Below, piece by piece: positions 4,623 through 23,215 of a stretch of DNA of 64,000 nt; position 1 is the stretch's first letter, and every line of letters starts with the position of its first letter. The stretch lies in NCBI RefSeq assembly GCF_023347275.1, contig NZ_CP094468.1, positions 62,001-126,000 of the forward strand. Reading direction: 5' to 3'. Under the pieces are notes generated by a model. That model had not been told where the DNA came from and ran no database searches. It saw nothing but the letters and a program-made list of their open reading frames with translations. The position numbers and the translations under genes were made by a program. The DNA is from Faecalibacterium sp. I3-3-89. GTDB lineage: Bacteria; Bacillota; Clostridia; Oscillospirales; Ruminococcaceae.

Positions 4623-5597
4623 TCAAAGTTCTGCGGTGCGGTGGGAGGCTTTGGGCTTCGCGTATTCTTCTAAAACTTCCGGCGGAATTCGCTCCAATAC
4701 GGCGAGGGCCTCCTCATACTCCCGCTGGAGCTTGGCATCCTCCAACTTTTTCAGAACGCTCTCGTGGGTCGCCTCCTCCAGGGACTCCGAGAGCTTTTTG
4801 TTTTTCCGCTTGAGTTTCTCATTCTCAGCCTTGGTACTGCTGAAGGCTGTACTGTACTTTTTCAGCTGGGTCCGCATTTTCTCCACGGCTGGGATATAAC
4901 CGTCCAGCAGTTCGGAAATCTCAGCGGCCCGCTTCTTGCCGTTCAAGGGGCCGATGCCGGTGAGCAGTTGGTCCAGCTTTTGGCGCTGCTGGGTGAGATG
5001 GGTCATCTCCTTGAAGATACGAGGCGGGATATGGTCGCGGCCCGTCTGGCTTGCACTCTCGCCGCGCTCCAGGTCGGGGTATTTAGCAACCATGTGCTCC
5101 CAGAACTTGTCCTGCCACCAGGTCAACTTCTTTTTGTTACCAACGATCTCTTTGGCGCTGAGTCTGCCATCTGGCGTCAAGGGGACAAAAGAAAGGTGCA
5201 TATGGGCTGTTTTCTCATCCATATGCACCACGGCGGAGATGATAGTTTCTCTGGATTGGTATTGCACAAAGAAGCGGAGTGTTTCCTCAAAATACTGCCG
5301 GATTTCGGGCAGCTTCTTGCCCTTGAAGAACTCCGGTGTAGCGGTGAACAGCACCTCTACCACCCGGACACTGTCCTTTCGGGTGCGGCATCCAGCGGCG
5401 CTGATCTGGCGCTCAGCCTCAGCCCGGTAACGTTGGGGTGGTTCGATCAGGTGGAAGTTATGCTTGCTGCGGGAGAGGTCAATATCGGGATTACTGGCGT
5501 ATCTTTCTTTTCTGCGTTCGTTATGGGCTTCGATGTTGGTGATCTCTGGCCCCTTGTACTTGGCAAAGCGCATGATGGCGTATTGTGGTTGGCTCAA
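4623..5597 (-). CDS. MOBV (Pre/Mob-type) relaxase
   Basis: A relaxase of the pMV158 MobM/Pre family, which nicks oriT and starts conjugative mobilization. The N-terminal motif is YAIMRFAKYKGPEITNIEAH followed by NERRKERY; the catalytic metal motif HMDEKTAHMH fits HxDExxxHxH. The C-terminal third is coiled coil. I place the start at the TTG at 5597 because AGGAGG lies 7 nt upstream and the protein then begins at the conserved family N-terminus; the ATG at 5660 lacks these. It is 324 residues long. The matching oriT (TAGTGTGTTA family) is at 11099-11132. Confidence 0.88.
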   Translation of the reverse strand: MSQPQYAIMRFAKYKGPEITNIEAHNERRKERYASNPDIDLSRSKHNFHLIEPPQRYRAEAERQISAAGCRTRKDSVRVVEVLFTATPEFFKGKKLPEIRQYFEETLRFFVQYQSRETIISAVVHMDEKTAHMHLSFVPLTPDGRLSAKEIVGNKKKLTWWQDKFWEHMVAKYPDLERGESASQTGRDHIPPRIFKEMTHLTQQRQKLDQLLTGIGPLNGKKRAAEISELLDGYIPAVEKMRTQLKKYSTAFSSTKAENEKLKRKNKKLSESLEEATHESVLKKLEDAKLQREYEEALAVLERIPPEVLEEYAKPKASHRTAEL

Positions 5598-5723
5598 TGG
5601 CGGCCCTCCTTTTTGGCAATTCAATCGTATTGATGACGGACATTGTAAAGCTCCTTTCATTCATGTGGATGGATAGGCTTTGATGATCGAGGTGGTGGTG
5701 TTCCATTTGAACACCGCCAAAAA

Positions 5724-6839: not shown

Positions 6840-8180
6840 TTATCCCCAGAGGGAAGTGGGCATCTCAGGCCGTACAAGTGCCTCAATTCCCAGATAGCCC
6901 CATACGCGGCGGCCTGCTGAGTTGGCGATGTTGTTGGTGTGCTCCAGGTTGTACTTTTTCAGGTTGGCAATCACGGCATCGCTGAAGCTCCGGGCTTTCA
7001 GAGCTACCAGGTTGTTCTCCTCACACCACATCTTATAAATGGTATAGAGGTCTTTGGAGCTAATGCAGGCATCCGCCTTGAGCCGAATATAGTCCTCGGC
7101 CTCCATGAAATCGAAGAAGTTGTTGTTGTCCCGCTTGACCAGCTCCCGGTTCTGCCGGGCGCGGTCACTCTCAGTAAACTTGAAGCCGTTCCTGACCAGA
7201 CGCTGCAACCCCTCGAAAGCCCACAGGAAAATTCCCTCGGCCTCGGCGGCCATCTTCTCGGCGATGTCAGGGTCATCTACCCGGTCGGCGGGCTTGTCCC
7301 TGGTGGTCAGGACCAGTTGCCGCCGATAGAAGCCGTCGCTTCGGTCGTACAGGGCTTGTAAGTCTCCATTGCTGAAAGCCAGCAGCCGGGCATACATCCA
7401 GCCCTGGTAGCTCTGCTTGCCTTTACGCTCCAGGTCCATCTGCCCCTGGGCCGTGACAATGGATTTGACGTAGTTGGTCTGCCGCAGGGCTTCCATCCGC
7501 ATATCGTCGTCCACGCAGAGCAGGATGTGTTCCAGGTCGGCCCGGGCAAAACGGTTCTCAGAGATTTTGCCGATGCTGCCGTCCTTCATATTAGTGCCGA
7601 ACAGCTTGGACAACACCACGCCGATCTGACTTTTGCCCTCGCCGCCCCGGCCCTTGATAACCATCATCCGCTGGCCCTTGTTGCTGGGAATGAGGCAGTA
7701 ACCTATAAACTCCTGGACAGTCGGAATATCTTCCGGGTGGAGCAGATCAAACAGGAACCGCAGCCAGTGGGTAGGCTGGGCCGCTTTGGGGTTGTATCGG
7801 ACCGGCAGCCGGTTGCGGATCACTTCCGGCTTGCCTTCCCGAAAGCTGCCGTTCAAGTTCAAGGTACCATTGGCCAGGTGGATACAGTTGGTGACTGGCG
7901 GGAAATCATCCACCTGGGCGGAGAGTTTCAGCAGGTCCAGAATGCTGCCTACCTTGCGGGCCACGTTGTTGCTGGCGTAGTCCTTCAGTTCCGCATAGAT
8001 GGTACTCCGCAGAGGCATCTCATCTGTTACCCGGCCATCTTCGGTGAAAAAGAAACCATTGCAGAAAACAATTTTGTGGGTCGAAATGAAGGTCTCACAG
8101 AAAACAGATTCGTTGATCCGGTAGCCTTCTTCCAGCCAGACCGGGTCATTGGAGCTGGGCCAATATTTCTTGTTTTTCAT
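6840..8180 (-). CDS. P4-type primase/helicase (DUF5906), IME-A
   Basis: A 446-residue superfamily 3-like helicase of phage/plasmid P4 primase type, expected to unwind the element origin. Walker A reads GRGGEGKSQIG; Walker B is near LLCVDDDM. The start at 8180 is chosen because it overlaps the stop of the CHC2 gene (ATGA) and the protein begins like its IME-B homologue; a 39-residue upstream extension is out of context. The C-terminus has a winged-helix-like tail. The palindrome array lies directly downstream of its stop, so the array may contain the element's replication origin. Confidence 0.87.
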   Translation of the reverse strand: MKNKKYWPSSNDPVWLEEGYRINESVFCETFISTHKIVFCNGFFFTEDGRVTDEMPLRSTIYAELKDYASNNVARKVGSILDLLKLSAQVDDFPPVTNCIHLANGTLNLNGSFREGKPEVIRNRLPVRYNPKAAQPTHWLRFLFDLLHPEDIPTVQEFIGYCLIPSNKGQRMMVIKGRGGEGKSQIGVVLSKLFGTNMKDGSIGKISENRFARADLEHILLCVDDDMRMEALRQTNYVKSIVTAQGQMDLERKGKQSYQGWMYARLLAFSNGDLQALYDRSDGFYRRQLVLTTRDKPADRVDDPDIAEKMAAEAEGIFLWAFEGLQRLVRNGFKFTESDRARQNRELVKRDNNNFFDFMEAEDYIRLKADACISSKDLYTIYKMWCEENNLVALKARSFSDAVIANLKKYNLEHTNNIANSAGRRVWGYLGIEALVRPEMPTSLWG

Positions 8181-8779
8181 GCAGCCTCCTCTCTGTCCAG
8201 GGTATTGAGGCGGGATTCGACCATCGGCAGAAGCTGACCGTCCAGCAGGCGCTTGGCAGCGGCTGCCTTCTTGGAGGTGGGCCCGAAGGCCAGGCAATCA
8301 ATAAGGTCGTCCACAACGGCCATCATGTGCAGAGCCTCTACAAAATGCTCGTCCAGCGGTTCCTCCGGGGAGAGGGGAGCAAACTCTGTTTGCCACCGGG
8401 TCAGCAGGTCGCGGTAGTCGTGGAGGACCCGGAGACAGTAGAAGATTTCCTCTTGCTGGGTGTCTGAAGAGGCAGCGGCTGGCTTGGGCAGAGCGACTGC
8501 ACCCGATGGAGGCTTGTCCGGGCTGAGTCCGAAGTCCTGGGTCAGCTTCCGGGCTGCCTGGAAGCTGCTGAGACCAAACAACTGGGCGGTAAGGTCAATG
8601 ACATCGCCGGTGGCACCGCAGCCGAAGCAGTAATAATAGGTGTCATTCAGCTTCATGCTGGGGGTATGATCCTCGTGGAAAGGGCAGCGAGTCATCCAAG
8701 TAGTAGTGACAGGCAGGCCGTACAAGGCTGCGGTCTGCTTGACAGTGACGGATTCCTTTACGATTTTAAAAAGATTCAT
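8177..8779 (-). CDS. CHC2 zinc-finger primase-like protein, IME-A
   Basis: A 200-residue protein with an N-terminal DnaG-type CHC2 zinc finger: CPFHEDHTPSMK, then YYYCFGCGATGDVIDL. The rest is helical and holds no TOPRIM domain. It probably supplies DNA binding to the partner helicase encoded 4 bp downstream in overlapping frames; together they replace a full primase. The start at 8779 gives MNLFKIVKESVTVKQ, a family-typical N-terminus. Confidence 0.85.
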   Translation of the reverse strand: MNLFKIVKESVTVKQTAALYGLPVTTTWMTRCPFHEDHTPSMKLNDTYYYCFGCGATGDVIDLTAQLFGLSSFQAARKLTQDFGLSPDKPPSGAVALPKPAAASSDTQQEEIFYCLRVLHDYRDLLTRWQTEFAPLSPEEPLDEHFVEALHMMAVVDDLIDCLAFGPTSKKAAAAKRLLDGQLLPMVESRLNTLDREEAA

Positions 8780-11012: not shown

Positions 11013-11098
11013 TCGCTGTTGCTGCCCCGCAGGGGCACCTTTCGTACAGAGGAGCGAGGCGGGATAGCTCCCCCCAGCTGCCGTCTGCTGCACAAAGG

Positions 11099-11132
11099 TA
11101 TAACACACTAGACTTTGTAACCAAAGTCGTGT
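11099..11132 (-). other. oriT: Origin of transfer (oriT), pMV158/MOBV type
   Basis: On the minus strand the sequence is GACTTTG-gtta-CAAAGTC followed directly by TAGTGTGTTA. This is the architecture of the pMV158 oriT: an inverted repeat next to the nick site TAGTGTG/TTA recognised by MOBV relaxases. It fits the MOBV relaxase at 4623-5597 of the same element. A second copy is at 49588-49614. Confidence 0.8.
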
Positions 11133-11355
11133 GCCACGAAACCCCGGCGCGGTTTCTTTGGATTCTTCCGGCTATCGCGTTGCCTCCCGGCTTCAGGCAA
11201 TAGCAGATGCGGGCGTCAACTCGTACACATGATCGAACTGAGCTTTGCGCTTATCACCAAAACATTCTGGTTGCCACAGCAATCAGGTTTCAGGGCAGAA
11301 GACATCTAAAGATGCTGAACTTCTGGATCGATCATACCGTCTTTTTTGAACGGCT

Positions 11356-12240
11356 TCATTCTAACTGGGGTTGAGGACGGTTAAGAGCCGCAGTACATTT
11401 TCCAATTTTCCCGTCGGGCCAGAATACAAGACGATTTGGACGGGAGACACAGTACATTTGATTATAACGCAGCATCCCGATTTTATCCAGATATGCAATA
11501 TGCTTCGCAACCAACACCTCTTGAGTATCCTGGTGAAGGGGTGACAGATCGTGGGAGCCTTTGCCGCCCCAGTCACCAACTGCACAAACAAGTACATCGA
11601 AGCGTTTATCCTGTCCAAACAAACGGTAAAGGTAATCGTACCAACTGTAGTCCTCATCGCCGGCCAGAAGATTACGGCGTAGCGTGATATGGAAGGAGTA
11701 CTCTTCCGGGGGCAACTTGGAAAGAGCGACCAGATTGTCAATGATGGTCCGCAGGGTTCCTTTGCCAGATACATGGGGCCGAGTCTTGTCATGGTTCCAA
11801 CCATCAAGTGTAATTTGGTAGCTGGTAATTCCTGCCTGACAAAACTGACGGAACAGCTTTTCGTCCAGCAGATAACCATTGGTGGTCATCTTGGCAGTAT
11901 ACTGAAAGCCATGCTGTTTCTGCAAGTTCTGAATCATTTCAGAGACTTCCAATACAGTGTCTTTGCAAAGGATCGGTTCGCCTCCAAGCCATGCAAGCAC
12001 AACCTGCTTATGCCGTGGGGCCTGCGCAGTGATATACTCTTCGATCTGATCCAGTGTGTCACGGGTCATACTGGCTGCCGGGTGGTTTTTGTGGCAGTAT
12101 GAACACTGAAAATTACACCCTTCAGTAGGAATCAGTGTGGCCATGAAGACATCCCAATTGAATTTTTGAGGTAATATTGGCTTGGGTTGAATACAACTGA
12201 AATTTTCTCCTAGGCAATCGGAGATGTATCCAGACATCAT
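11356..12240 (-). CDS. Radical SAM protein, SPASM domain truncated
   Basis: A 294-residue radical SAM enzyme with CxxxCxxC at residues 42-49 (CNFQCSYC), a GGEP motif (LAWLGGEPILCK) and the start of a SPASM region (MYCVSRPNRLVFWPDGKIGK, then CTAAL). It stops abruptly after LNRPQPQLE. A frame one base away continues with MKPFKKDGMIDPEVQHL and a stop, which looks like the expected next SPASM segment, so a frameshift near 11358 is likely. It is the last gene of the RiPP operon. It may be a second maturase or be decaying. Confidence 0.75.
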   Translation of the reverse strand: MMSGYISDCLGENFSCIQPKPILPQKFNWDVFMATLIPTEGCNFQCSYCHKNHPAASMTRDTLDQIEEYITAQAPRHKQVVLAWLGGEPILCKDTVLEVSEMIQNLQKQHGFQYTAKMTTNGYLLDEKLFRQFCQAGITSYQITLDGWNHDKTRPHVSGKGTLRTIIDNLVALSKLPPEEYSFHITLRRNLLAGDEDYSWYDYLYRLFGQDKRFDVLVCAVGDWGGKGSHDLSPLHQDTQEVLVAKHIAYLDKIGMLRYNQMYCVSRPNRLVFWPDGKIGKCTAALNRPQPQLE

Positions 12241-12271
12241 ATATAAGCCCTCTTGATATTGTAGACTAAAA

Positions 12272-13468
12272 TTAGTTGCCGTTCTTTTTTTCTTGAAGTG
12301 AAAGCAACCATGCGCTCTTCACAGAAAGACAGATGCCAATTCCAACTACGGTCATAAAAGCACCGAGGATGACAAAACAAGCCGTTGACCCGGCGCTCAC
12401 CAGTAGTGATGAGCCAAACAGATAAAAAATTTCAGTAACATTGACGCCCATGTTGAAGACGGAAAGCAGCTCGGCGCGATTGTCTTCCCTGCCGGCAGCA
12501 TCTACAATGCTGTTTTGGACTTCTCCCAGCAGATAGGATGGAATATCCAAAAAAAGCGGAAGGATCAGCATAAATAGGATAGTCCAAACCGGCACATTGA
12601 CCAAGCCCAACACACCAAGGGCTATTCCACTCAGAATGAAAAACAGTGCCATCATTTGATTATAGTGTTCAGGCTTGGTACGGGCGAGAATCCGTTCGGA
12701 CAGCAACTGAATTGCAGAATAACCCATAATAATTGCGGCGAGCCAGGTTTCATTGATCCCGCACAACTGCAGCTTCTCCGCATAGAAGAAATTGATCAGA
12801 ATGCGGCCAATGTTCAAAGCTGCCAAAATCATTAGAAGCATCCATATCTTTTTCTGCTGAAACAACTGCGGATAGGGAATGTTTTTCTTTTGGCGCGTTT
12901 CACTTCTGGGCTGCACTGTTTCCTTGGGGATTTTTAAAGAGGTAAAGACAGCAACAAGGTTTGCGGCAATCGTTGCCAGAAGCAGACCCTTGATGCCAAT
13001 CAGCGTGTACAGGACCGCATAAGCTAGGGTACTGGCAAAAAATCCGACAGTTCCATAATTGGCGACATGTGCAGATTTTTCAGCGTAATGTTCCTTTGAA
13101 AACATAATATAAATATAGCCGCTCTGCGTCCCAGAAGAAAAGGAAGCCGCTGTGCCTTCGAGGATAGCCTGTAAAATAAACAGACTATAATTGCAGCTTA
13201 CATGAGCCAGCAAGAGGCAGGTTCTCGAAATGAGCAGCGCGATCTGGTATAGTACCAACGTGGATTTATAGCCAATGCGATCGGTCAGCTTTCCGAGAGG
13301 AATCTCTGTGAGGAGGACCATAGTAGCCATAATTGCTTGCAAAATGAAGAATTGGCTGAGAGAGATTCCTGCAGTGGTTCGTACCAGTAGAGAGACTGGG
13401 GAGAAAAACACCAGCCCATTGAGCAGAGAGGTAAGGTCAAGTGCATCTGTTTTCAGCTTTGCGTTCAT
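12272..13468 (-). CDS. MFS transporter, RiPP cluster
   Basis: A 398-residue major facilitator with about 12 hydrophobic segments and the TM2-3 loop motif GKLTDRIGYKS. It is placed between two radical-SAM genes and overlaps the upstream one by 32 bp, so it is translationally coupled. The likely role is export of, or immunity to, the modified peptide. The substrate is inferred from context only. Confidence 0.8.
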   Translation of the reverse strand: MNAKLKTDALDLTSLLNGLVFFSPVSLLVRTTAGISLSQFFILQAIMATMVLLTEIPLGKLTDRIGYKSTLVLYQIALLISRTCLLLAHVSCNYSLFILQAILEGTAASFSSGTQSGYIYIMFSKEHYAEKSAHVANYGTVGFFASTLAYAVLYTLIGIKGLLLATIAANLVAVFTSLKIPKETVQPRSETRQKKNIPYPQLFQQKKIWMLLMILAALNIGRILINFFYAEKLQLCGINETWLAAIIMGYSAIQLLSERILARTKPEHYNQMMALFFILSGIALGVLGLVNVPVWTILFMLILPLFLDIPSYLLGEVQNSIVDAAGREDNRAELLSVFNMGVNVTEIFYLFGSSLLVSAGSTACFVILGAFMTVVGIGICLSVKSAWLLSLQEKKNGN

Positions 13469-14819
13469 TTTGATTCACCTCGTTATATTTGGATTTAATA
13501 TAAGGAATAAACAGTGTTTTCATGAAGTGAGAAAAAACTTCTTCTTCATATGTACAGCACTTTTTGAAATCGATTTGGTGGGACAGCTGACATCCGCCAC
13601 CGCAGAAGCCACCGATTTTACAATCCTTACACTCCGCATAAGAATTGCAGGTTACAGCGACGGGCCGATAATTTGTTAAATTTTCATAGGAAAAATCAAA
13701 AAGGCTGTACCTAGATCTACCAACTGTGCAAGTACAACGATATGTTTTCAGATTCATATCAACATAAAAAACATTACTGGATGACGAAGTGCTCCAACAA
13801 TAACTATGTGTTTGTTTATGCTCCCGCAAATTCAACTTTAGGCCCATTTTGTCGGCAAAGTTATAGCAGGTCTTTAAAAATGCCGCGTGAACATTGTCCG
13901 GGAGAGGCTTGCTTTGAAGCTCAGCGAGAATCTCACTTTCCATCATGATGTCAGGGAAATTTGTTTCATACAAACGATCATCTACTCGACCAATAGTCCA
14001 CGCAAAGTTTTTATCCTGCAAAAGCTGTAACTTCTTCAAGTCATCCAGTGTATTCCAGATTTCTTTATGATTGTGCCTATCGATATTGGTTCCTAAGTCC
14101 ACATGGATGCCGTAATGCAGAAGTGTCTTAATACAGCACAGGAGTTTGAAAGTTTCATTTGTATTGTTCCGGCTCGGATCAAGATCGTATCGCGTCATAT
14201 AATTTAACGCCATACTGTCGATTGTGGGATAAATACCGCTGATGAAGCGACGATTGATGATAAATTTCTTCAAATAATACGAAAGGAAACTTCCGTTTGT
14301 GGTGATATGAACAGTGGTTTTGTGCTCTTTGCAAAATTGGAGAATTTTATCAATTACTTTCTCATTCTCGATCAGCAAGGGTTCGCCACCAAATAAACCC
14401 AGTCGAACGGTCTTGTTCGGATTTGCTTCCATATACTGTGCAATGATACTTAAAATTTTATCCAGAGTTTCATCACTGATAAGTTTCTTTTCCAAGGTTT
14501 TATCGTTTTGCTGATAGCAGTAAGTACAGTGCATGTTGCATTTATACGTAATTGTTAAGATGAAAGTGACTTCTTCGCTTGACTTGTTTGAGTCGGTTTC
14601 ATCGCTATCCAGCATTTTGTGGTATACTTCTTCGCTCACACCATGGTGGAGGAGATCTTTTGAGATGAGGAAACATCTATTGCTGTACGTATCAACAATA
14701 ACACATTTTTCGGAATCAACATCTTCTAAATATTTATTTCCAAGGACCTGTGTCAGATCAAAATTCCCCTGTGCGTCTTTGGTTTCCACAAGCGTTCCGT
14801 TTTTCAATTCATAAAACAT
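13437..14819 (-). CDS. Radical SAM/SPASM peptide maturase
   Basis: A 460-residue enzyme. The N-terminal 80 residues resemble a precursor-recognition region. The radical SAM motif CNMHCTYC is at 94-101 and a GGEP motif (LGLFGGEPLL) follows. The C-terminal SPASM has many Cys (YRCTCTVG, CNSYAECKDCKIGGFCGGGC). It should use S-adenosylmethionine radical chemistry to crosslink or modify the adjacent 34-residue peptide. The start is taken at 14819 because the upstream ATG at 14852 lies inside the terminator hairpin. The operon order is precursor, this gene, MFS, second radical SAM. Confidence 0.85.
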   Translation of the reverse strand: MFYELKNGTLVETKDAQGNFDLTQVLGNKYLEDVDSEKCVIVDTYSNRCFLISKDLLHHGVSEEVYHKMLDSDETDSNKSSEEVTFILTITYKCNMHCTYCYQQNDKTLEKKLISDETLDKILSIIAQYMEANPNKTVRLGLFGGEPLLIENEKVIDKILQFCKEHKTTVHITTNGSFLSYYLKKFIINRRFISGIYPTIDSMALNYMTRYDLDPSRNNTNETFKLLCCIKTLLHYGIHVDLGTNIDRHNHKEIWNTLDDLKKLQLLQDKNFAWTIGRVDDRLYETNFPDIMMESEILAELQSKPLPDNVHAAFLKTCYNFADKMGLKLNLREHKQTHSYCWSTSSSSNVFYVDMNLKTYRCTCTVGRSRYSLFDFSYENLTNYRPVAVTCNSYAECKDCKIGGFCGGGCQLSHQIDFKKCCTYEEEVFSHFMKTLFIPYIKSKYNEVNQNERKAENRCT

Positions 14820-14839
14820 GGTTCCATTATACAGAAAAA

Positions 14840-14868
14840 TCCCAAGAAGCAAACATTTGCTCCTTGGG
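14840..14868 (-). terminator. Leaky terminator between precursor and maturase
   Basis: On the minus strand TCCCAAGGAGCAAA pairs with TTTGCTTCTTGGGA (14-nt arms with one non-Watson-Crick pair), followed by TTTTT. A hairpin here would let the short precursor mRNA outnumber the enzyme mRNA, a common RiPP arrangement. Confidence 0.7.
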
Positions 14869-14881
14869 AAACCGTCACTGA

Positions 14882-14986
14882 TCAGTAGAGGCGGTGCCCG
14901 TTGTCATCATCGCAGCTAACGATAACAACCGCGTCGTTTGCCTTCATCTCTTCCAGCTCTTCATTGGAAAAAGTTACGGTATACAT
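14882..14986 (-). CDS. Candidate RiPP precursor peptide, 34 residues
   Basis: The start at 14986 is chosen because AAAGGAGAAACAG precedes this ATG; longer in-frame starts have no ribosome site. The N-terminal half looks like a leader (YTVTFSNEELEEMKAND). The C-terminal half, AVVIVSCDDDNGHRLY, holds the only Cys next to three Asp and ends in Tyr. A Cys-to-Asp thioether (ranthipeptide-like) or a C-C crosslink is conceivable, but the chemistry cannot be read from sequence. It is directly followed by a leaky terminator and the radical SAM maturase. I do not recognise a described family. Confidence 0.65.
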   Translation of the reverse strand: MYTVTFSNEELEEMKANDAVVIVSCDDDNGHRLY

Positions 14987-15043
14987 TTTCTGTTTCTCCT
15001 TTCTTTTTTCAGCTCTGGATGTTTGGTTCATCGCTGTGACTAT

Positions 15044-15109
15044 ATTGTAGCAGCACGACGCACTTCTGAACATATCGTACCAAGTTACTTTCAAATAACA
15101 CAAAACGAT
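15044..15109 (-). promoter_or_regulatory. Promoter and 39-bp activator-like element of the RiPP operon
   Basis: Minus-strand -10 box TACAAT (15044-15049). No good -35 box is present. Exactly 21 bp upstream of the -10 lies a 39-bp element (15071-15109) that begins ATCGTTTTGTGTTA and ends ACGATATG when read on the minus strand. The promoter of the secreted-peptide gene (16377-16442) has the same element at the same distance. A poor -35 with a conserved upstream element suggests an activator site. Confidence 0.7.
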
Positions 15110-15224
15110 AAGTTGGATTCCAATGAACTTATTCCTTTTTGATTTCCAGCTATCAACGACTGGAAAATTAGCTTGATATCCTTTATAATTATAAGAACTC
15201 TTTATTCAATCTGGGGTGGTTTCA

Positions 15225-16142
15225 ATGAAAAATGTTTTTCTTGGAGAATATATCAAACAGCGGCGGCTGGATCTGGGCCTGACCCAGGAGCAGCTTTGCG
15301 ATGGAATCTGTGAACCGATGACCCTTTCCCGACTGGAAAATGGCAAACAGACTCCCAGCCGCAATCGGATCAATGCCCTTTTGCAGCGGCTGGGCCTGCC
15401 GGATGACCGCTATTTTGCACTGTTGAGTAAAAATGAGCTGGAAATGGAAGCCCTTCAAAAGGAGATTGTTGCATGCAATGCTAATCATCGCGTGGAGGAA
15501 GGCTTTGAAACCTTAAAAAAATTTGAGCAGATTGCAGACCATGACGATCAAATCGCGCAGCAGTTTATCTTACGCTCTAAGGTGTTGTTGGGGCGTTTGG
15601 ATCAACGATATACACCACAAGAACAGATTGACCTGTTGATGCAAGCAATTCGGCTGACGGTTCCCCGCTTTAATTTGGATGAGATTGAGAGGTTTTTTTA
15701 TTCGACAGACGAAATCAAGATCATCAATCAAATTGGAATTGCATACTCCGATGATGGACAAAATAAAAAAGCAGCTGATATCTATTACCAGCTGCTGAAA
15801 TATGTCCGAAAGCATTTTGAAGAAACAATCACTTCGGTTGGTATCTTACCGATGGTTTATTTTAATTATGCCCGTGTTCTGGATTTGTGCGGTCGCTACG
15901 AGGATAGCGCAGAATGTGCAGAAGAAGGCAGGAAGGCTTGCCTCAAATATGGGCACTATCAATATTTACCACATTGTCTTGAAATCCAAGCTGAATGCGC
16001 TCATTTCATGGGAGATGACAAAAAAAGCGCGGATCTCTATCGTAAATGCTATTATCTGTGCCAGGTCATCGAATACCAGGAAGGATTGGAAATTACCAAA
16101 AAGGAAGCAAAAGAATATCTGGGCATGGAATTTGAAACTTAA
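15225..16142 (+). CDS. HTH-TPR regulator, RRNPP/Rgg-PlcR type
   Basis: A 305-residue cytoplasmic regulator. An N-terminal XRE-type HTH (YIKQRRLDLGLTQEQLCDGI and SRLENGKQTPSRNRI, about residues 5-62) is followed by about 230 residues of helical TPR-like repeats (AYSDDGQNKKAADIYYQLL; CAEEGRKACLKYG; FMGDDKKSADLYRKCYYL). This is the architecture of peptide-sensing Rgg, PlcR and NprR regulators. The start at 15225 has GGGGTGG upstream. It is divergent from the RiPP operon, and its stop overlaps the stop of the convergent secreted-peptide gene. I infer that it binds the shared element in both target promoters. Confidence 0.8.
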   Translation: MKNVFLGEYIKQRRLDLGLTQEQLCDGICEPMTLSRLENGKQTPSRNRINALLQRLGLPDDRYFALLSKNELEMEALQKEIVACNANHRVEEGFETLKKFEQIADHDDQIAQQFILRSKVLLGRLDQRYTPQEQIDLLMQAIRLTVPRFNLDEIERFFYSTDEIKIINQIGIAYSDDGQNKKAADIYYQLLKYVRKHFEETITSVGILPMVYFNYARVLDLCGRYEDSAECAEEGRKACLKYGHYQYLPHCLEIQAECAHFMGDDKKSADLYRKCYYLCQVIEYQEGLEITKKEAKEYLGMEFET

Positions 16143-16333
16143 AGAGCTTCACCGCCCCCCGGAAACGCGTCATATAACTGCATACCCGATTCGTCCGGGT
16201 CTTCGGGCTGTTCTGTTTCGGTCACGCCAGTCTGAGGCGTGGGCAAGTCTTCAGGTTCAGCGGCAAAGCAGGGGACAGCCAGCAGACTGGTGGCCAGAAC
16301 AATAGAAGTAATCAGAGTAAAAAGACGTTTCAT
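16139..16333 (-). CDS. Small secreted peptide, candidate pheromone precursor
   Basis: A 64-residue protein with a clear Sec signal peptide (MKRLFTLITSIVLATSLLA, cleavage near PCFA/AE). An acidic Pro/Glu linker (EPEDLPTPQTGVTETEQPED) leads to the C-terminus GMQLYDAFPGGGEAL. AAAGGA precedes the ATG at 16333. Its stop codon shares bases with the regulator's stop, so the two genes are convergent and abutting, as with many RRNPP regulator-peptide pairs. The C-terminal segment could be the mature signal. The promoter carries the element shared with the RiPP operon. Confidence 0.6.
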   Translation of the reverse strand: MKRLFTLITSIVLATSLLAVPCFAAEPEDLPTPQTGVTETEQPEDPDESGMQLYDAFPGGGEAL

Positions 16334-16376
16334 AATTTATTTTCCTTTCGTTTTATGTTGTTTTGGTGTTGGCAAA

Positions 16377-16442
16377 AGGATACCACTACAAGGCAGTACA
16401 GACCATATCGTGTCGTGTTGCTTTTTTCTAACATAAAACGAT
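16377..16442 (-). promoter_or_regulatory. Promoter and 39-bp element of the secreted-peptide gene
   Basis: Minus-strand -10 TATCCT (16377-16382), then 21 bp, then a 39-bp element (16404-16442). Its two ends, ATCGTTTTATGTTA and ACGATATG, match the RiPP promoter element (15071-15109) with one mismatch over the 14-nt half and none over the 8-nt half. The half sites ATCGT and ACGAT are inverted. Confidence 0.7.
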
Positions 16443-16579
16443 GGGTTTTCCTGAGAATAAGATCAGATGCTTTCCAATCGGCTTGTGATGCAGCAAGTAC
16501 TAAAATAAGAGGATGGCCACCCAAAACAATGCCGTCAAGTCATTTGTGTGTGAATTGCTTCCGAGTTTCTAAAATTGTC

Positions 16580-16612
16580 CTGCACGGTTTCTGCACGGAA
16601 TCTGCACGGTTT
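16580..16612. repeat. Putative integrase arm sites, IME-A right
   Basis: Three direct 11-bp repeats CTGCACGG(TTT/AAT) lie just inside the right attachment repeat and match the set at 2803-2834. Confidence 0.55.
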
Positions 16613-16750: not shown

Positions 16751-16838
16751 CTACGAATCAGTAGGCCGGGGGTTCGAGTCCCTTCCATCGCACCAAAAAA
16801 TGCCGTGAAATCGAAAGATTTCATGGCTTTTTTGTTTT
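16751..16838 (+). other. attR of IME-A / attL of IME-B: tRNA-Arg 3' half
   Basis: A second 88-bp copy of the tRNA-Arg(ACG) 3' half with its terminator; one difference from 2704-2791 is obvious by eye. It is again without a 5' half. The integrase of IME-B starts 200 bp to the right. This makes IME-A and IME-B a tandem array at one tRNA locus whose intact gene must lie to the left of the window. Confidence 0.85.
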
Positions 16839-17041: not shown

Positions 17042-18442
17042 TTACGCGAAGAGTACCCGCGTCAGCTCGCGGCGCTCCTCTGCGTCCATCTGCCGGATGG
17101 CTTCAAGGATCATTTTACCCGTGATTTTTGTTGCCACCGGCGTTTTGTTTTCCGGGGGTTCCTGCGGCTTTGCACCTGCTACGTCCTGCGTGTAGAAGTC
17201 GGCTTCGATCTTCTCGGTCAACTCCAACCGGGGCTTGTCCTGCGTGTGAGCGTAGGTGTCCATCAGGACGGTGGCGGTTGCATGGCCAGTGTTGCCCTGC
17301 ACCGATTTGAAGTCACCGCCAGATTGCAGCAGCTGGTAGGTGGCACTGGAGTGGCGCAGACCGTGGAACACGATCTTCTCAAACTCCGGGTGCTCTGCCC
17401 TCCACATACGGTACCACTTGGTCAGAACGTCCGGGGCAATGGGTAAGCCGTCTGGTAAGCGGAACAGCTGACCGCAGTTGCTGTATTTTTCCGGGGCATT
17501 CTGTTCGTCCTGCTTCATCTTTTCCAACCATGCCAGAAGCTCCTCTTTCAAGGGCTTGGTCATGTACAGGATGCGGTTGGACTTTTTGGTCTTGGTCCGC
17601 TTGAGGATCAGCGAGGACTTACTCCCCTCCCGTCTGTCCGGGAAGGTGTGGTAGATCTGGGTGGGGTCGATCTTGGACAAGGCGACCTTGTCGGCACGCT
17701 GCAGGGCCTTGTTCACCGTGATAGTTCCGCGCCCATCGGCGGCATCGAAGTTGAGGTCTCCCGGCTGTAAGCCGAGGATCTCGCCCTCACGGAGCGAGAG
17801 GATCATGCTCATGTGCACCGCCAGATGCAGGGCGGGGTTCTCGATGGTCTGCAGCGCCGCCAACATGGTGCGCTCATCCCAGATGGTGCGTTCTTCGGTG
17901 TTGATCTTGGGGGCTTCACGGGGAGTAGGCGACTTGTGGATCAGATCCCAGTCAACGGCATACGAAAAGGCAGTCTTCAGGAGCGTGTGGACTTCGTGAA
18001 TGGACGTGCTGGATAACAGCCGTTTCTTCTGATTTTCCGTCAGCTCCTGCTTCTCGCCGTGAACGTACTGGCCGCAGGGGGTCTGGCTCAGGGTGGCGTA
18101 GAACTGCTCAATGTCATAGGTGCGGAGGTCTTGCACCTTCCGCTTTCCGATATACGGCACGATGAGGTTCTGCACCATCGCCACAGATTGGGTGTAGGTC
18201 TTGGGAGACCACTTGTGTTTGCTGGACTGAATGGGAATCCACTTGTACAGCATCTCCTCGACCGTCATGGTGTCGGGCACGAGGAAGGTGCCGTCCAGCA
18301 GTTCCTTCTCCACCGTGATCTTGCGCTCCTGCGCTTCGGCCTTGGTCTTGAAGGTTTCCCAGCCCTTGCAGGGCTTGCCAGCATGATCTTTGTAGTTGTA
18401 TCGGACGGAATACGTGTTGCCACGTTTCATAATAGATGCCAT
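17042..18442 (-). CDS. int: Tyrosine recombinase/integrase of IME-B
   Basis: A 466-residue integrase with the same domain order as the IME-A enzyme: N-terminal arm-binding region (MASIMKRGNTYSVRYNYKD), core-binding domain and catalytic domain. Catalytic elements visible are SLREGE, HGLRHSSAT, GHAT and the nucleophile region MDTYAHTQ. The start at 18442 is chosen because GAGGGAGG lies upstream, whereas the upstream in-frame start does not fit the family N-terminus. It is transcribed toward the tRNA-Arg remnant. Confidence 0.92.
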   Translation of the reverse strand: MASIMKRGNTYSVRYNYKDHAGKPCKGWETFKTKAEAQERKITVEKELLDGTFLVPDTMTVEEMLYKWIPIQSSKHKWSPKTYTQSVAMVQNLIVPYIGKRKVQDLRTYDIEQFYATLSQTPCGQYVHGEKQELTENQKKRLLSSTSIHEVHTLLKTAFSYAVDWDLIHKSPTPREAPKINTEERTIWDERTMLAALQTIENPALHLAVHMSMILSLREGEILGLQPGDLNFDAADGRGTITVNKALQRADKVALSKIDPTQIYHTFPDRREGSKSSLILKRTKTKKSNRILYMTKPLKEELLAWLEKMKQDEQNAPEKYSNCGQLFRLPDGLPIAPDVLTKWYRMWRAEHPEFEKIVFHGLRHSSATYQLLQSGGDFKSVQGNTGHATATVLMDTYAHTQDKPRLELTEKIEADFYTQDVAGAKPQEPPENKTPVATKITGKMILEAIRQMDAEERRELTRVLFA

Positions 18443-18456
18443 AGATGTTCCCTCCC

Positions 18457-18756
18457 TCAGACCGCAGCAAACCAATCATCGAAGCTCTGCTTGCTTACCC
18501 GGATGCTGGTACCAAGGCGGATCACCTTGAAATCTTTCGTGGTGTTGCACAGATTGTACGCAGCACGGTTGGAGATCGCCAACAGTTGGGCAATCTCTTC
18601 CACCCGGTAAACGAGCGGGGCGTGTCGGACGGTTTTGCTGGTCTGGTCAGAAGGTTCTACGGCAGGGGTTTCGGACAATTTCATTGTAGGGGATTCGGGC
18701 GCGATTTTCAAGTCCTCACGGGTCAGTTTAGCGGAATTTTTGCGGACATTCGTCAT
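18457..18756 (-). CDS. Excisionase-like helix-turn-helix protein, IME-B
   Basis: A 99-residue homologue of the IME-A protein at 4301-4603: variable N-terminus, then the HTH YRVEEIAQLLAISNRAAYNL and the wing VIRLGTSIRVSKQSFDDW. The start at 18756 has AAGGAG at a normal distance; an extension to 18921 has no support. The integrase start lies just after its stop, suggesting a two-gene unit. Confidence 0.8.
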   Translation of the reverse strand: MTNVRKNSAKLTREDLKIAPESPTMKLSETPAVEPSDQTSKTVRHAPLVYRVEEIAQLLAISNRAAYNLCNTTKDFKVIRLGTSIRVSKQSFDDWFAAV

Positions 18757-18884
18757 AGGCATGTCTCCTTTGCACTTCTCCAGACCCGGCGCAGCTCCGG
18801 TTGAACTGCACCCTTGTGGGCCGGTAAATATGTAAGGGCCTGCCGCTCCTGACCCGAAGCAGCAGCCCAAAAAAGTGCGAGAAC

Positions 18885-19095
18885 TTGAATTTACGCGCCC
18901 CACGCGCCCCAAACCACACAAAAGTACCTTCCTGTGTTGATTTTATAGGGCGCATGGCTGGGATGCACGCGCCCTCTTGGGGCGCATCTTGGTTTCTCTC
19001 CCGCCCCGAAGGGGCGGATGCGCGCTCGAAGAAAACAACGATAACAGGTAAAAACAAATGTTTTGGGGCGCGTAGGGCGGGAGATTTTCACTTTT
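18885..19095. repeat. GCGCCCC-rich repeats, candidate replication origin
   Basis: A gap of about 340 bp holds at least six copies of GCGCCC(C) or its complement, in both orientations. An outer inverted pair is ACGCGCCCC near 18893 and GGGGCGCG near 19063. No gene is seen. Iteron-like repeats directly downstream of the P4-type helicase gene would suit an origin of replication. Confidence 0.4.
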
Positions 19096-19103
19096 CGTGT
19101 GTT

Positions 19104-20450
19104 TTATGCCGCAGCAAAGGCGGGGTGGACGCATACGCCCCGGAAGCCGCGATACTTTCCCTCGATGTGCTTGGAAAAGGTCAGGCCATACTTCCCTGCA
19201 TTTTTCAGCAGGAACTGGCTGAACTTCTTTTGCGGAACGGGTGATTCCAGATTATCCTCGCACCACTTGGTGTAGGCGCGGTAGAGATAGGTGGAGCGTT
19301 CCTCGGTGTCGGGCTTGAAGCGGACATACGCCGTTGCCTGCATGAACTGGGTCAGGTTGTCGCTGTCCGCCATGGCTGCTTCGAGGTTCTGGATGGAGCG
19401 CTCGCTGATGGTAAACTGATAGCGGTTCGCCAGCAGACGGTGTAACCCCTCCAGCATCCACAGCAGGATGCCGGGACGCTCCTCGGACAACTCTTCGATG
19501 AGGAAGGGATTATCCACCCGGGCAGGGTCACGGTCTTTCACCGTGATGAGGATCTGTCTGCGCCAGAAGCCGTCGCTGTCATCATGAGCGGCCACAAGGT
19601 TGCCATTGCCGAAGCAGATGAAACGAACGTACAGCAGACCTTGGACAGCCTGCTTGTTCTTCCGCTCGATGCACAAACGATCCTCGGCGGTGACGATGGA
19701 CTTGATGTTCCGCGTTTCAGGCAAAGCCACCATGTTCAAATCGTCATCGACCATGACCAGCTTGTACTCCAGATTTGCACTGGCAAAGCGGTTCGTTTCG
19801 ATGCGGAGGATGGATTCGGAGTGAGAGGCTTCCCCGAACAGCTTCTTCAGCAGCAAGCCGATGCGGGACTTCCCCTCGCCGCCCTTGCCGGTCATGACCA
19901 GCATCTTCTGCGCCTTGGTAGACGGGATCAGGAGATAGCCAAGATATTCCTGCAAGGTCAGAATGTCCTCCGGGATCAGCAGACCGTCCAGAAATTCCAG
20001 CCACTTGGTCGGTGCGGGGGCATCGGGCTGGTATTCCACGGGGAGCCGGTTCAGGCAGAGTTCCTTTTCCGGCACAAATCCCCGTTCGTCCAGAAAGTAG
20101 GTTCCGTTCTGGAGATGGATGCGGTCAAGCTGGGGTTTCCATTCAGGGGTATAGGTTTCGATACGGAGTGCGTCCAGAACCTGCTTCTCCTTCTTGGCAA
20201 GGTTGTCGAGCACAAAGTCACGGAGGTCGCTGTGGACTTCGTAGAGCAGTGCGTCCTCGTCTACCTCGCCGTTCTGGTCGAACAGCTTCTGTTTCAGGCA
20301 CATCATGGGGTGTTTCTCTAAAAAGTACTGGCAGTAAGCGGTTTCACGCACTTTGCCCTTACTGTCTACCCAAGGGCATTCGCATTCTTCCTCTTCTTCC
20401 AGTTCGTCCTCATCACGCCAATCGTCGTTCCTCTTTTTCCAGTCGCTCAT
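19104..20450 (-). CDS. P4-type primase/helicase (DUF5906), IME-B
   Basis: A 448-residue SF3-like helicase. An acidic N-terminus precedes Walker A GKGGEGKSRIG and the VMVDDDLN Walker B. The C-terminal winged helix resembles KKFSQFLLKNAGKYGLTFSK. The start at 20450 gives MSDWKKRNDDW; the frame extends upstream only as overlap with the CHC2 gene. It is homologous to the IME-A helicase (6840-8180) and is placed just after a CHC2 gene in the same way. Confidence 0.87.
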   Translation of the reverse strand: MSDWKKRNDDWRDEDELEEEEECECPWVDSKGKVRETAYCQYFLEKHPMMCLKQKLFDQNGEVDEDALLYEVHSDLRDFVLDNLAKKEKQVLDALRIETYTPEWKPQLDRIHLQNGTYFLDERGFVPEKELCLNRLPVEYQPDAPAPTKWLEFLDGLLIPEDILTLQEYLGYLLIPSTKAQKMLVMTGKGGEGKSRIGLLLKKLFGEASHSESILRIETNRFASANLEYKLVMVDDDLNMVALPETRNIKSIVTAEDRLCIERKNKQAVQGLLYVRFICFGNGNLVAAHDDSDGFWRRQILITVKDRDPARVDNPFLIEELSEERPGILLWMLEGLHRLLANRYQFTISERSIQNLEAAMADSDNLTQFMQATAYVRFKPDTEERSTYLYRAYTKWCEDNLESPVPQKKFSQFLLKNAGKYGLTFSKHIEGKYRGFRGVCVHPAFAAA

Positions 20451-20868
20451 GTAATCCCTCCCAATACTTCCGTAGCTCGTTTTCGGTCTGCGGGTCCGGG
20501 AGCACCGAACAGTCCAGATAATATTCAACGATGTCAAGGTTCTTTATCGCTTCAAGGAAGCAGGGGTGAAGTTCTTCTGTGGGTGACTGCGGTTCGTATC
20601 GGACCCGCCAACGCTGCAGACAGCGGTAATAGTCCAGCAGCAGCTGCCGGACGGTGGGCGGTCTGCGGGGAGCAAGCCGCACCTTGCCGTCGGCAAGTGC
20701 CATGCCGAAATCGTTCTTCAACTTTTCCACAGCCTTATAGGGAGAAAGTTGAAAAAGTCTGCCGACAAAATCGATCACATCTCCATCTGCCTGACAGGCG
20801 AAACAGTGGAAACGGCTGTCCACCTTCATGCTGGGGTGTTTATCCCCGTGGAAGGGGCAGCACATCAT
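20413..20868 (-). CDS. CHC2 zinc-finger primase-like protein, start unclear
   Basis: A homologue of the IME-A CHC2 protein: CPFHGDKHPSMK, then FHCFACQADGDVIDFVG. The ATG at 20868 lies just before the zinc finger and would remove the family N-terminus. Upstream in frame, codons back to about 20946 read SDVKNAISTRQAAELYGLAV, matching the homologue, but no ATG, GTG or TTG serves as a start. A neighbouring frame starts with ATG at 21061 (ATGA overlap with the relaxase stop). A single-base frameshift near 20950-20970 may therefore separate the true start from the body. Confidence 0.7.
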   Translation of the reverse strand: MMCCPFHGDKHPSMKVDSRFHCFACQADGDVIDFVGRLFQLSPYKAVEKLKNDFGMALADGKVRLAPRRPPTVRQLLLDYYRCLQRWRVRYEPQSPTEELHPCFLEAIKNLDIVEYYLDCSVLPDPQTENELRKYWEGLHERLEKEERRLA

Positions 20869-20953
20869 ACCGTTCCGATTTACGGCTAAGCCGTACAGCT
20901 CCGCTGCCTGCCGGGTCGAGATGGCGTTCTTTACGTCCGAAAAGACAGAGGTG

Positions 20954-21061
20954 CTACCCTCCGTCCCAATGGGTGGGGTACAGGCGAAAGGACGAAGCCC
21001 GGTGAGGGGCGTGGGTGAGGTTGGGTTTATTCACACATCGATCCGTCAGAGTGTTGTTCAT
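20954..21061 (-). CDS. 35-codon reading frame, possible displaced 5' end of CHC2 gene
   Basis: The ATG at 21061 overlaps the relaxase stop (ATGA) and has GGAGG 4 nt upstream, the expected coupling for the next operon gene. It reads MNNTLTDRCVNKPNLTHAPH and stops at 20954, one frame away from the CHC2 body that becomes homologous at about 20946. It is either a tiny peptide or the broken start of the primase gene. Confidence 0.4.
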   Translation of the reverse strand: MNNTLTDRCVNKPNLTHAPHRASSFRLYPTHWDGG

Positions 21062-22620
21062 TTGACCTCCTGCTGCGGTACGGTGTGGCTGCGCTCTTCC
21101 TTGCGGAAGAAGGCTTCCACGTTCTGTTGTGCGGTGCGGAGTTCACGCAGTTCGATCTGCGCTTTCTTGTAGCGGGTGTAGAACCCGTTTTTCTCCGAGG
21201 AAAGGGTCTGGTATTCGGCATCCAGCTTTTTGAGGTCCGGCAGCGTCCTGAGCCCATTGGCCTTGAAATAGGCGCAAGCGGCCTCGTACACAGCAAACTC
21301 TGCACGGTGCTGCTCCTTGAACTTGGCGGGATTCCGCACAGTCTGGAGCTTCTGTGCAAGGGGCTTGTACTGCCGATAGACCACAAGATGCCCGCGCAGC
21401 TCCTTGAGGGAGACCATGCGGGCATCCAGGTCTTTGACCACCGCCAGTGCATCGTCGTGCTGGGTTTTCAGTTCGGCAATGCGCTGGTTCAGGGCATCTT
21501 CGCTGAGCAGCTTTTTCTCCTGCAGGAGACACAAGGTTTGCGACCAGCGTTTGAGGTTGAACTTTTTCGCCCAACGCTCATAGCCGATGCCCTTACCTGC
21601 GGCAACATTCGCCTGAATGTCAACCAGTTTCCTGATCTTATCCGGCTTCTTTTCGCTGCTGGGCTGGATGGTGACGGCAAGCTGGATGTTCTGGGAGAGG
21701 ACGGTCAGCACCTGCTCCTTTTCCAGCTTCTTGCTCAGTTTCTTGGCGGTGATGAACTTTGTCCGGCCGGGCGGGCAGTAGCTCAACCGACCTCGGCTCT
21801 CCTTCACGGCGATGCCGTGTTCCTGCATGAGCAATGCAGAAAATTCCTCGAAGGTGGTGGTCTTGTTCAGCACAGCGTAGATCTGCTTTCGCAGCTTGTC
21901 CAGTTCGGTCTGATAGACGGTCTGGGTGGGCTGCTGCCCTTCGGCGGCAAGTTTGGCGTTGGCATGGTCGAGGCGGCGTTGTCCGCGCCGCTGCGCCCAA
22001 TACTCGCGCTCCGAAACATGGTCGCCTTGAGCTTCCAGCAAATTGATCTGGTTCAGATCGGCTTGCTCGCACATTTCCATGACAGCGACACGGAGGTGCC
22101 GGAGCATGGCTGAAGTGCAGCGGTGCTTCTTGCCCGCTTCCCAGTCGCACGGCTTGTCCATGAAGGGCTGCCGTTCCACGGTGCGGACGCGCAAGCTGCC
22201 GATGACGATGTGGACGTGGATGTTCCCGGCACTGTTGTGCCCATCCGGGTGGGTGCAGACGATGGCGGGATGACCGGGGAAGTTGTCCTTGCAGAACTGC
22301 AAGCCAAGGGCTTGCGCCCGCTCCATGGTCAGGTCGTTCTCTACTGCGTCCTTCGGGTCGAAGCTGATGATATAATGGTGGGTCTTCACGTCCTCCCGCC
22401 CGCCGTTCTTGCCGTACTTGCGATTGGCAATCAGGCAGGCCATAGCGAACGAGGATTCGCCGCACTCAAGGGTGTCGAGCAGGTACGAATCCCGCAGCTT
22501 GGGTCTGCCCTTCTCGTCCAGAATGGGCAGACCGGTGTACTCGTTGTGCTGAAAGGTGAGATAGCTTTCGGCGGCGGCGTAGTTAGAGTTCTTCGAGCTT
22601 AAATGCTTGATGGTTGCCAT
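21058..22620 (-). CDS. mobA: MOBP-type relaxase (MobA/MobL-like), IME-B
   Basis: A 520-residue relaxase. The N-terminal nuclease domain holds YIISFDPKDAVEND, a family motif, and the metal-binding NIHVHIVIGS (HxH). The C-terminal half is a long coiled coil. It begins inside the end of mobC and is probably translationally coupled. The ATG at 22620 is preferred to the GTG 12 nt upstream. It is about 60% identical by eye to the relaxase at 54309-55844, showing that the two elements share a mobilization module. Confidence 0.85.
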   Translation of the reverse strand: MATIKHLSSKNSNYAAAESYLTFQHNEYTGLPILDEKGRPKLRDSYLLDTLECGESSFAMACLIANRKYGKNGGREDVKTHHYIISFDPKDAVENDLTMERAQALGLQFCKDNFPGHPAIVCTHPDGHNSAGNIHVHIVIGSLRVRTVERQPFMDKPCDWEAGKKHRCTSAMLRHLRVAVMEMCEQADLNQINLLEAQGDHVSEREYWAQRRGQRRLDHANAKLAAEGQQPTQTVYQTELDKLRKQIYAVLNKTTTFEEFSALLMQEHGIAVKESRGRLSYCPPGRTKFITAKKLSKKLEKEQVLTVLSQNIQLAVTIQPSSEKKPDKIRKLVDIQANVAAGKGIGYERWAKKFNLKRWSQTLCLLQEKKLLSEDALNQRIAELKTQHDDALAVVKDLDARMVSLKELRGHLVVYRQYKPLAQKLQTVRNPAKFKEQHRAEFAVYEAACAYFKANGLRTLPDLKKLDAEYQTLSSEKNGFYTRYKKAQIELRELRTAQQNVEAFFRKEERSHTVPQQEVK

Positions 22621-23029: not shown

Positions 23030-23124
23030 ATTCGACCTCCTGTGAAAATGATAAATGCCCGCTCCGGGATGGAGAGGGCTATGTAATGCGACACGCCGCT
23101 TTCGCACCAACGGTGCGAAGCTAG

Positions 23125-23215
23125 AGCAGGGTTTGGGGAAGGCACTCCCCAACAAGTGGCAGACCATGTGACAGAACATTTTCAAGCATTGAAAATTTGT
23201 GGCCACAGGTCGATA
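23125..23215. other. Candidate oriT of the MOBP module, IME-B
   Basis: A hairpin GTTTGGGG / CCCCAAC (23130-23153) lies 20-25 bp from a second inverted repeat ATTTTCAA-gca-TTGAAAAT followed by TTGTGGCCAC. The pair recurs at 50592-50680 and 56339-56458, and the hairpin also at 29776-29803. Three of the four copies lie upstream of mobC. The position and structure fit an origin of transfer. Confidence 0.6.

Follow-up and report, generated by a model that had tools for sequence, protein, structure and literature searches.

In ryptides, the enzyme RrrB joins the Cδ of an Arg to the ortho position of a Tyr, and according to the available portions of the reports neither Lys in place of Arg nor Phe in place of Tyr is accepted (PMC7670169, PMC8326336). 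Ribosomally synthesized and post-translationally modified peptides (RiPPs) made by radical S-adenosylmethionine (SAM) enzymes under Rgg control, ryptides included, are in print (PMC13361665, PMC12445099, both in excerpt). In the accessible part of another study, RRNPP_detector found 196 biosynthetic clusters beside RRNPP pairs, some of them on plasmids (PMC10075063). Two other papers hold nothing further on this group in the sections available (PMC9765709, PMC12700828). The locus described here lies in a 64,000-nucleotide stretch of the genome of Faecalibacterium sp. I3-3-89 (NZ_CP094468.1, positions 62,001 to 126,000 of the forward strand), which we call the window and whose own numbering is used for its features. 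It comprises a ryptide-type operon, a divergent PlcR-like regulator and a secreted-type 64-residue peptide. Quite probably this ryptide-type RiPP operon is turned on by a PlcR/PapR-like quorum-sensing pair, carried with it on a mobilizable element of 14 kb.

The window resembles the ryptide loci of Streptococcus suis (RrrA, RrrB and a transporter, with Rgg and a short hydrophobic peptide, SHP; PMC13361665, PMC12445099 and PMC7670169, in part) in the order precursor, radical SAM/SPASM maturase, transporter, in the Arg and Tyr at the precursor end and in the RRNPP-type regulator beside the operon. It differs in a maturase that is 37% identical to the S. suis radical SAM protein P0096 and falls below the family cut-off, in a precursor that the RrrA model misses and that carries R-L-Y, and in a PlcR-like regulator with a Sec-type 64-mer, where the excerpts on S. 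suis have Rgg with a short SHP. The clusters from RRNPP_detector (PMC10075063) also hold an RRNPP pair beside a RiPP cluster and are in some cases mobile; however, in the portion available the families listed exclude Oscillospiraceae and Ruminococcaceae, the mobile cases are plasmids, and no cassette exchange is described. In the open-licence literature no publication was found on Faecalibacterium with quorum sensing and RRNPP, or on ryptides with Faecalibacterium. The parts are known; what appears to be new is the receptor-peptide-operator set in a gut genus, together with evidence, read from the sequences, that a RiPP operon is exchanged as a cassette.

In the PlcR/PapR system, the gene of the exported PapR propeptide adjoins the regulator gene, and a dyad PlcR box stands before the propeptide gene. 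The window has the same arrangement, except that its propeptide gene is convergent and the operator sequence is another. Compared with PlcR of the Bacillus cereus group, the window regulator is predicted to share the helix-turn-helix (HTH) plus tetratricopeptide repeat (TPR) fold but has 16–21% identity and, as its putative target, a RiPP operon. The closest solved relative by fold is PlcR and not Rgg, to which an earlier note on this DNA had pointed in connection with streptococcal radical SAM RiPPs.

Regulator, propeptide and operator

The regulator gene (15225–16142, plus strand, from an ATG; a GTG at 15216 is also possible) encodes a protein that scores above the Pfam cut-offs for HTH_3 and HTH_31 and below those for RNPP_C and TPR_12. 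The top matches of its predicted fold are PlcR, and domains and predicted structure together mark it as a receptor with the RNPP fold, built of HTH and TPR parts. Tail to tail with it, in a 4-bp overlap, lies the gene of a 64-residue Sec-type propeptide (16139–16333, minus strand), a probable pheromone precursor with the C-terminus LYDAFPGGGEAL; the label Sec-type comes from a hydrophobicity rule and a reading of the sequence, not from a signal-peptide program. Counted with a lowered hydrophobicity threshold, a convergent Sec-type peptide stands beside the regulator at 12 of 21 related loci, versus 4 of 160 control genes, one of these four being itself a regulator. The 27 propeptide homologues show 17 different last-13-mers behind a nearly constant signal region, as is expected for pherotypes. 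The source genome, a single contig of 2.8 Mb, holds a paralogous pair, the propeptide of which ends in QPCDAMPGVGDMG. Between the regulator and its paralogue the ratio of nonsynonymous to synonymous substitution (dN/dS) is 0.07, with dS near saturation at 1.9.

One pattern, CGTTTTrTGTTA-N17-ACGATATG, is common to the promoter of the RiPP operon and that of the peptide gene. Pattern and dyad scans place the operator CGTTTTGTGTTA-N17-ACGATATG at 15071–15107 before the RiPP operon and the same operator at 16404–16440 before the propeptide gene, both on the minus strand. With a gap of 10 to 25, the pattern occurs at exactly four sites in the 2.8-Mb source genome, one before each of two such peptide genes and one before each of the RiPP operons that face the regulator and its paralogue; the reversed pattern has zero sites there. 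Across 21 genomes, 9 with the regulator and 12 without, 10 sites are found in 4 genomes, all at such promoters. The underlying dyad is CGTTTTrTGTTA-N8-TAACAyAAAACG, of which a perfect copy is present in another genus (L063). At 6 or fewer mismatches it gives 13 sites in 7 of 21 loci, all at peptide-gene or RiPP-operon promoters, and at 7 mismatches two further sites located elsewhere. Block shuffles with five times the bases yield none at 5 or fewer mismatches and three at 6.

Visual reading of the two window promoters gives an extended −10 without a good −35 in each. The −10 of the operon is TACAAT at 15044–15049 (minus strand), preceded by TGC and absent from a promoter list requiring a −35. 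Promoters of this form would be expected if an activator were required. The picture drawn in the earlier note, in which a mobilizable element carries an RRNPP-type regulator of Clostridia and a partner peptide exported by way of a signal peptide, appears well founded as far as sequence goes, and an operator shared with the RiPP operon can be added to it.

Regulator, secreted peptide and precursor also occur together in an Oscillospiraceae metagenome-assembled genome (MAG; 'Lapin-008', rabbit by its name; L010), a co-occurrence that the earlier note had suggested looking for. There a regulator 48% identical to that of the window, with RNPP_C above the cut-off, is divergent from an R-R-Y precursor, a 39% identical maturase and an ATP-binding cassette (ABC) exporter; a Sec-type peptide is convergent with it (by eye), and the dyad is found at both promoters with 4 and 5 mismatches. 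A Butyrivibrio locus (L008) groups an HTH protein (24% similarity, Pfam HTH domains only), a 52-residue secreted-looking peptide, a precursor, a maturase and a major facilitator superfamily (MFS) protein 43% identical to that of the window. In Streptococcus cuniculi (L012) an Rgg_C regulator is grouped with an NF041055 precursor ending RRRY and an MFS gene. Judged by the S. cuniculi, L010 and window loci, RRNPP-type control of ryptide-like operons involves no fewer than two receptor kinds, Rgg and PlcR-like.

The ryptide-type operon

The operon lies on the minus strand. Its precursor gene (14882–14986), with AAAGGAG upstream, encodes 34 residues ending H-R-L-Y, and its Arg and Tyr thus stand at the end of a peptide encoded about 60 bp upstream of the maturase gene (13437–14819; 460 residues from ATG). 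The MFS exporter of the cassette is encoded at 12272–13468 (MFS_1, E 3.6e-19); besides the Butyrivibrio protein, which lies beside a ryptide-type maturase, it resembles at 46% one beside a Clostridiales maturase of this type. The open reading frames (ORFs) that the earlier note had placed here, those of a radical SAM fragment, the MFS protein, the maturase, the precursor, the regulator and the 64-residue peptide, are all present. Its leaky terminator stands as a structure: between precursor and maturase, at 14840–14869 (minus strand), an intrinsic terminator-like hairpin has a 13-bp stem followed by TTTTT and a free energy of −23.2 kcal/mol (z −5.8), equalled in 0 of 200 shuffles. That it may be leaky is something we infer.

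Among NCBIfam models the best for the maturase is ryptide_rSAM (NF040899), with 349.6 bits and E 2.5e-104 over residues 43–449, short of the curated cut-off of 600; the runner-up reaches 72.5 bits. The predicted structure (pLDDT 88.8) has the sactipeptide maturase 5why/5wgg as its best fold match, then SuiB and anSME. The protein cluster of the intact form, P0007, has 1916 member sequences. The earlier note could assign the precursor end to no familiar family; with its terminal R-x-Y and a maturase whose best model is NF040899, it can be described as ryptide-type. The curated RrrA model NF041055, which matches the S. cuniculi precursor with 93 bits, has no match to the 34-mer at E≤10. The 34-mer is therefore a divergent ryptide-like branch and not a curated member.

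A profile from an alignment of 26 maturases, run against genome contigs, gave 17 loci with homologous maturases. We searched up to 900 nt upstream of these for small ORFs that combine a motif resembling a ribosome site with R-x-Y among the final 12 residues. Such an ORF is present at 10 of the 17 loci, those of F. hattorii, two Butyrivibrio, the Oscillospiraceae MAG, S. cuniculi, Clostridium bornimense, three more Clostridia and one Bdellovibrionales. At two Elusimicrobia loci, candidate peptides with RQY and RKY at their ends are encoded upstream of the maturase at a distance of about 1.6 kb, and at the other five (L011, L019, L021, L022, L023), some of them at contig ends, no R-x-Y candidate was found. 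For 131 other genes of the same loci, taken as a control, 3 of 124 small ORFs had these features, two being the Elusimicrobia peptides. An alignment of nine precursors has only M1 invariant besides R and Y, whose invariance follows from the choice of the rows for R-x-Y, and the Cys is variable. A hidden Markov model (HMM) built from seven of the nine sequences outside Faecalibacterium, likewise chosen for R-x-Y (without L016 and the duplicate L009, and with L010 trimmed to an inner start), ranks the 34-mer first among 931 ORF entries of the window at E 2e-8. Alternative starts of the same ORF come next, ahead of the best unrelated entry at E 0.79. That the 34-mer is conserved next to homologous maturases, a point on which the earlier note had staked its reading, is borne out by both the survey and the HMM. 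The operon probably makes a ring-shaped, Arg-Tyr crosslinked peptide.

Ryptide-like maturases 30–32% identical to that of the window, with small ORFs ending GRRY, VRQY and IRKY, are seen in Bdellovibrionales and Elusimicrobia MAGs (L016, L017, L018). It may be that the R-x-Y family extends well outside the Firmicutes.

In 394 genomes of the order, a search for the ryptide family at E≤1e-60 returned the source genome alone. The maturase has three weak matches in viral contigs and none in the plasmid collection, and the regulator has no match in either. Matches to maturase or regulator in the phage collection are confined to faecal virome contigs, and a PHROGs scan gave general regulator and radical SAM families, nothing more specific. 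The protein clusters P0002–P0029 include many fusions of foreign N-termini (regulator, LysR, NusA, integrase) to the maturase, with ever shifting junctions and nearly all single-member. The HTH-radical SAM fusions (P0002, P0004, P0005 and others) were set aside as evidence, being probably amplification or assembly chimeras; since regulator and maturase are divergent, their fusion would require an inverted join.

Operon exchange, proposed mechanism and alternatives

A 294-residue radical SAM frame at 11356–12240 (minus strand; rSAM2), which the earlier note had listed as a second radical SAM, is a truncated relic of a former cassette's maturase and not a second tailoring enzyme. Both ends of its full-length relative are gone, namely the N-terminal 83 residues and the SPASM C-terminus. 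It matches at 74% residues 84–354 of the 416-residue radical SAM enzyme of a second locus in the source genome (L024) and stops short of what we take to be the SPASM cysteines of that enzyme. The DNA homology extends about 100 bp past the stop, to 11258, and a scrap of the former ABC exporter remains at 11199–11294 (minus strand; 32 codons, 508–539, with an internal stop; tblastn 59% to the L024 exporter). Because the radical SAM relic and the ABC scrap remain, the ryptide operon can be said to occupy the place of an earlier operon. The dS of rSAM2 is 0.65–0.69; its dN/dS of 0.18 mirrors the past and is silent on present function.

L024 (9694–14229) is the locus of the paralogous pair and lies beside a tRNA-like 3′ end. 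It carries an intact operon of another RiPP kind, with a like operator, a 24-residue precursor MEVLAEKKPIEEQVDCNIDINIFC at its nt 11056–11130, the full-length radical SAM/SPASM enzyme and a 540-residue ABC exporter. L043 has the same operon, L048 its radical SAM and ABC genes, and L063 a relative with a 25-residue precursor.

The exchanged cassette core (12065–14998, minus strand) is identical over 2,934 bp to locus L041 of G014, a genome of the same genus, with a single difference up to 15078. The platform flanks of the window and L041, compared in 100-bp blocks, are 52–92% identical over 15101–16600 and 62–93% from 12100 down to 11101. The outer flanks of L041 match L024 at 97.9% (1.7 kb) and 98.9% (4.0 kb). 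Near the inner junction the L041 sequence is that of the window as far down as 12065 and that of L024 starting at 12021, with a mixed block separating the two; at the promoter junction it is L024-like up to ACGATATGTT and window-like beyond. Both junctions and the L024-like flanks thus mark L041 as the locus that received an operon like that of the window, one crossover lying at the operator and one within rSAM2. Given 2,934 identical bp on a divergent platform, the ryptide operon moves without the regulator too. The self-contained signalling and product module of the earlier note is therefore not the sole mode of movement, the operon having been exchanged without the regulator and the peptide gene. 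The chromosomal stretch chosen for the background divergence of G000 and G014 matched further copies, about 70% identical, in all the genomes and gives no species-level baseline. An F. hattorii contig (L007, G007) has the same cluster, all six proteins being identical over their full length, and G014 shares three of these identical proteins, those of the precursor, the maturase and the MFS exporter. Among the regulator loci searched for it, the ryptide is found in the window, the F. hattorii copy and L041 only, most regulator loci being without it.

A faecal virome contig (L089:1–4111, MT839674.1) carries a regulator fragment, 84% over 145 residues and clipped by the contig end, an operator half-site and a third set of genes: a 37-residue precursor MRIIKNGSDVLDQADCLTINCCSGAVGAFPDEVEDEL with three Cys, a 425-residue radical SAM protein and a 530-residue ABC protein. 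After this set come 73 bp like the end of the ryptide cassette and then the start of the platform ABC, clipped by the contig end. The radical SAM protein is absent from 31 genus genomes at E≤1e-60, the ABC protein shares 96% identity with the ABC protein encoded opposite the regulator in G025, and the third cassette is known from this one contig. On balance we favour the view that regulator, pherotype-variable peptide and dyad operator may be a standing quorum-sensing socket on Faecalibacterium elements. Homologous recombination, crossing over once at the operator and once within the operon being displaced, would swap RiPP operons in, so that the population-specific signal is kept and the weapon or message exchanged. 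At least three kinds of operon are found behind it: the ryptide, a 24–25-residue Cys precursor with its own radical SAM and ABC proteins, and the 37-residue Cys precursor with the third radical SAM and ABC proteins, from the one virome contig.

Related regulators at L042, L044, L045 and L064 are divergent from an ABC exporter, with no precursor or radical SAM gene recognised. Identity to the ABC protein of the third cassette is 96% for the L044 exporter, and identity to that of the second is 98% for the L045 exporter; these four loci look as if the rest of the operon had been lost.

In the mechanism we propose, the 64-residue propeptide would leave the cell via Sec and be cut to a short C-terminal peptide. 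This peptide would re-enter the cell and bind the TPR domain of the regulator, enabling its action at the dyad operator. The regulator would activate both extended −10 promoters: the one before the propeptide gene, closing a positive feedback loop, and the one before the RiPP operon. The terminator behind the precursor gene, if leaky, would give much precursor and little enzyme. The leader-guided maturase would probably link the Arg to the Tyr within the C-terminal R-L-Y, and the product would leave the cell through the MFS protein. Regulator, propeptide and operators would be the fixed platform, on which the RiPP operon is a cassette replaced by recombination.

The 64-residue peptide could instead serve the RiPP as a secreted immunity or accessory protein, with the regulator sensing the RiPP product or another cue. 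Its place under the same operator as the RiPP fits this, and so does the company it keeps: of five other genus loci that encode the peptide, three (L024, L041, L043) have a RiPP operon including a precursor, and a fourth (L048) has the radical SAM and ABC genes of one. However, at the fifth (L046) and at the distant L068, L070, L071 and L072 the convergent secreted peptide is accompanied by no radical SAM gene recognised by eye among the listed neighbours, and one peptide type accompanies two unrelated RiPP cassettes. With the C-terminus diversifying behind a nearly constant signal region, we regard a non-signal role as distinctly improbable. It is unlikely that the maturase forms another bond, such as a Cys-Asp or a Cys-Cα thioether at S-C-D-D-D, with R-L-Y as a mere recognition tail. 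The core does have a Cys before DDD, a Cys is also found in the precursors of Butyrivibrio, L013, L014, L016 and L020, and the best solved fold match is a sactipeptide thioether enzyme. Yet the cores of L012 (a member of the RrrA model), L015 and L010 are without Cys, ryptide_rSAM is by far the best maturase family, and R and Y are invariant in the precursor alignment, though its rows were selected for R-x-Y.

A defunct operon, a decaying remnant kept by hitchhiking on a resident element, would accord with the decay of the adjoining rSAM2 and ABC genes, but we think it very unlikely. The frames of precursor, maturase, MFS protein, regulator and propeptide are all open, and the identity of the first three proteins in F. 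hattorii and G014, the low dN/dS of the regulator, though at near-saturated dS, and the size of the maturase cluster speak against decay. PlcR/PapR-like control of a ryptide-type operon would predict for a gut genus the class of the product (an Arg-Tyr crosslinked peptide), the inducer (a C-terminal peptide of the 64-mer) and the DNA switch. A synthetic peptide could induce silent RiPP clusters, and the swapped cassettes are natural replicates for asking whether quorum signal and product evolve independently.

The mobilizable element and its borders

Exact 58-bp direct repeats lie at 2704–2761 and 16751–16808 (plus strand), with an extended match of 89 bp at 98.9%. Their sequence resembles a tRNA 3′ end, the left att repeat having a tRNA 3′-end-like core and the right being its partner; ARAGORN found no intact tRNA within the window. 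On the minus strand are encoded a tyrosine integrase (2900–4285; Pfam Phage_integrase, E 3.3e-10), a small HTH protein that is probably the excisionase (4301–4603; HTH_17, E 6.9e-11), a Mob_Pre relaxase (4623–5660; Pfam Mob_Pre, E 6.7e-49), a D5/DUF5906 replication protein of the element (6840–8297; DUF5906, E 1.4e-17) and a CHC2 zinc-finger primase-like protein (8177–8779; Zn_ribbon_DnaG, E 1.1e-14). Att direct repeats, integrase and relaxase are the features of an integrative mobilizable element of about 14 kb, and together with the HTH_17 protein they agree with the element postulated in the earlier note. No conjugation machinery was recognised among those ORFs between the att repeats that were scanned. 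The virome contig L088 has the cluster of the window in integrated form, with the junction visible; an excised form did not turn up.

A second element, with an integrase, an HTH_17 protein, a D5-type protein, a relaxase and a NikA/MobC-like protein, follows directly after the right att repeat, at 17042–23311. Since it abuts this repeat, the two elements are probably stacked in tandem.

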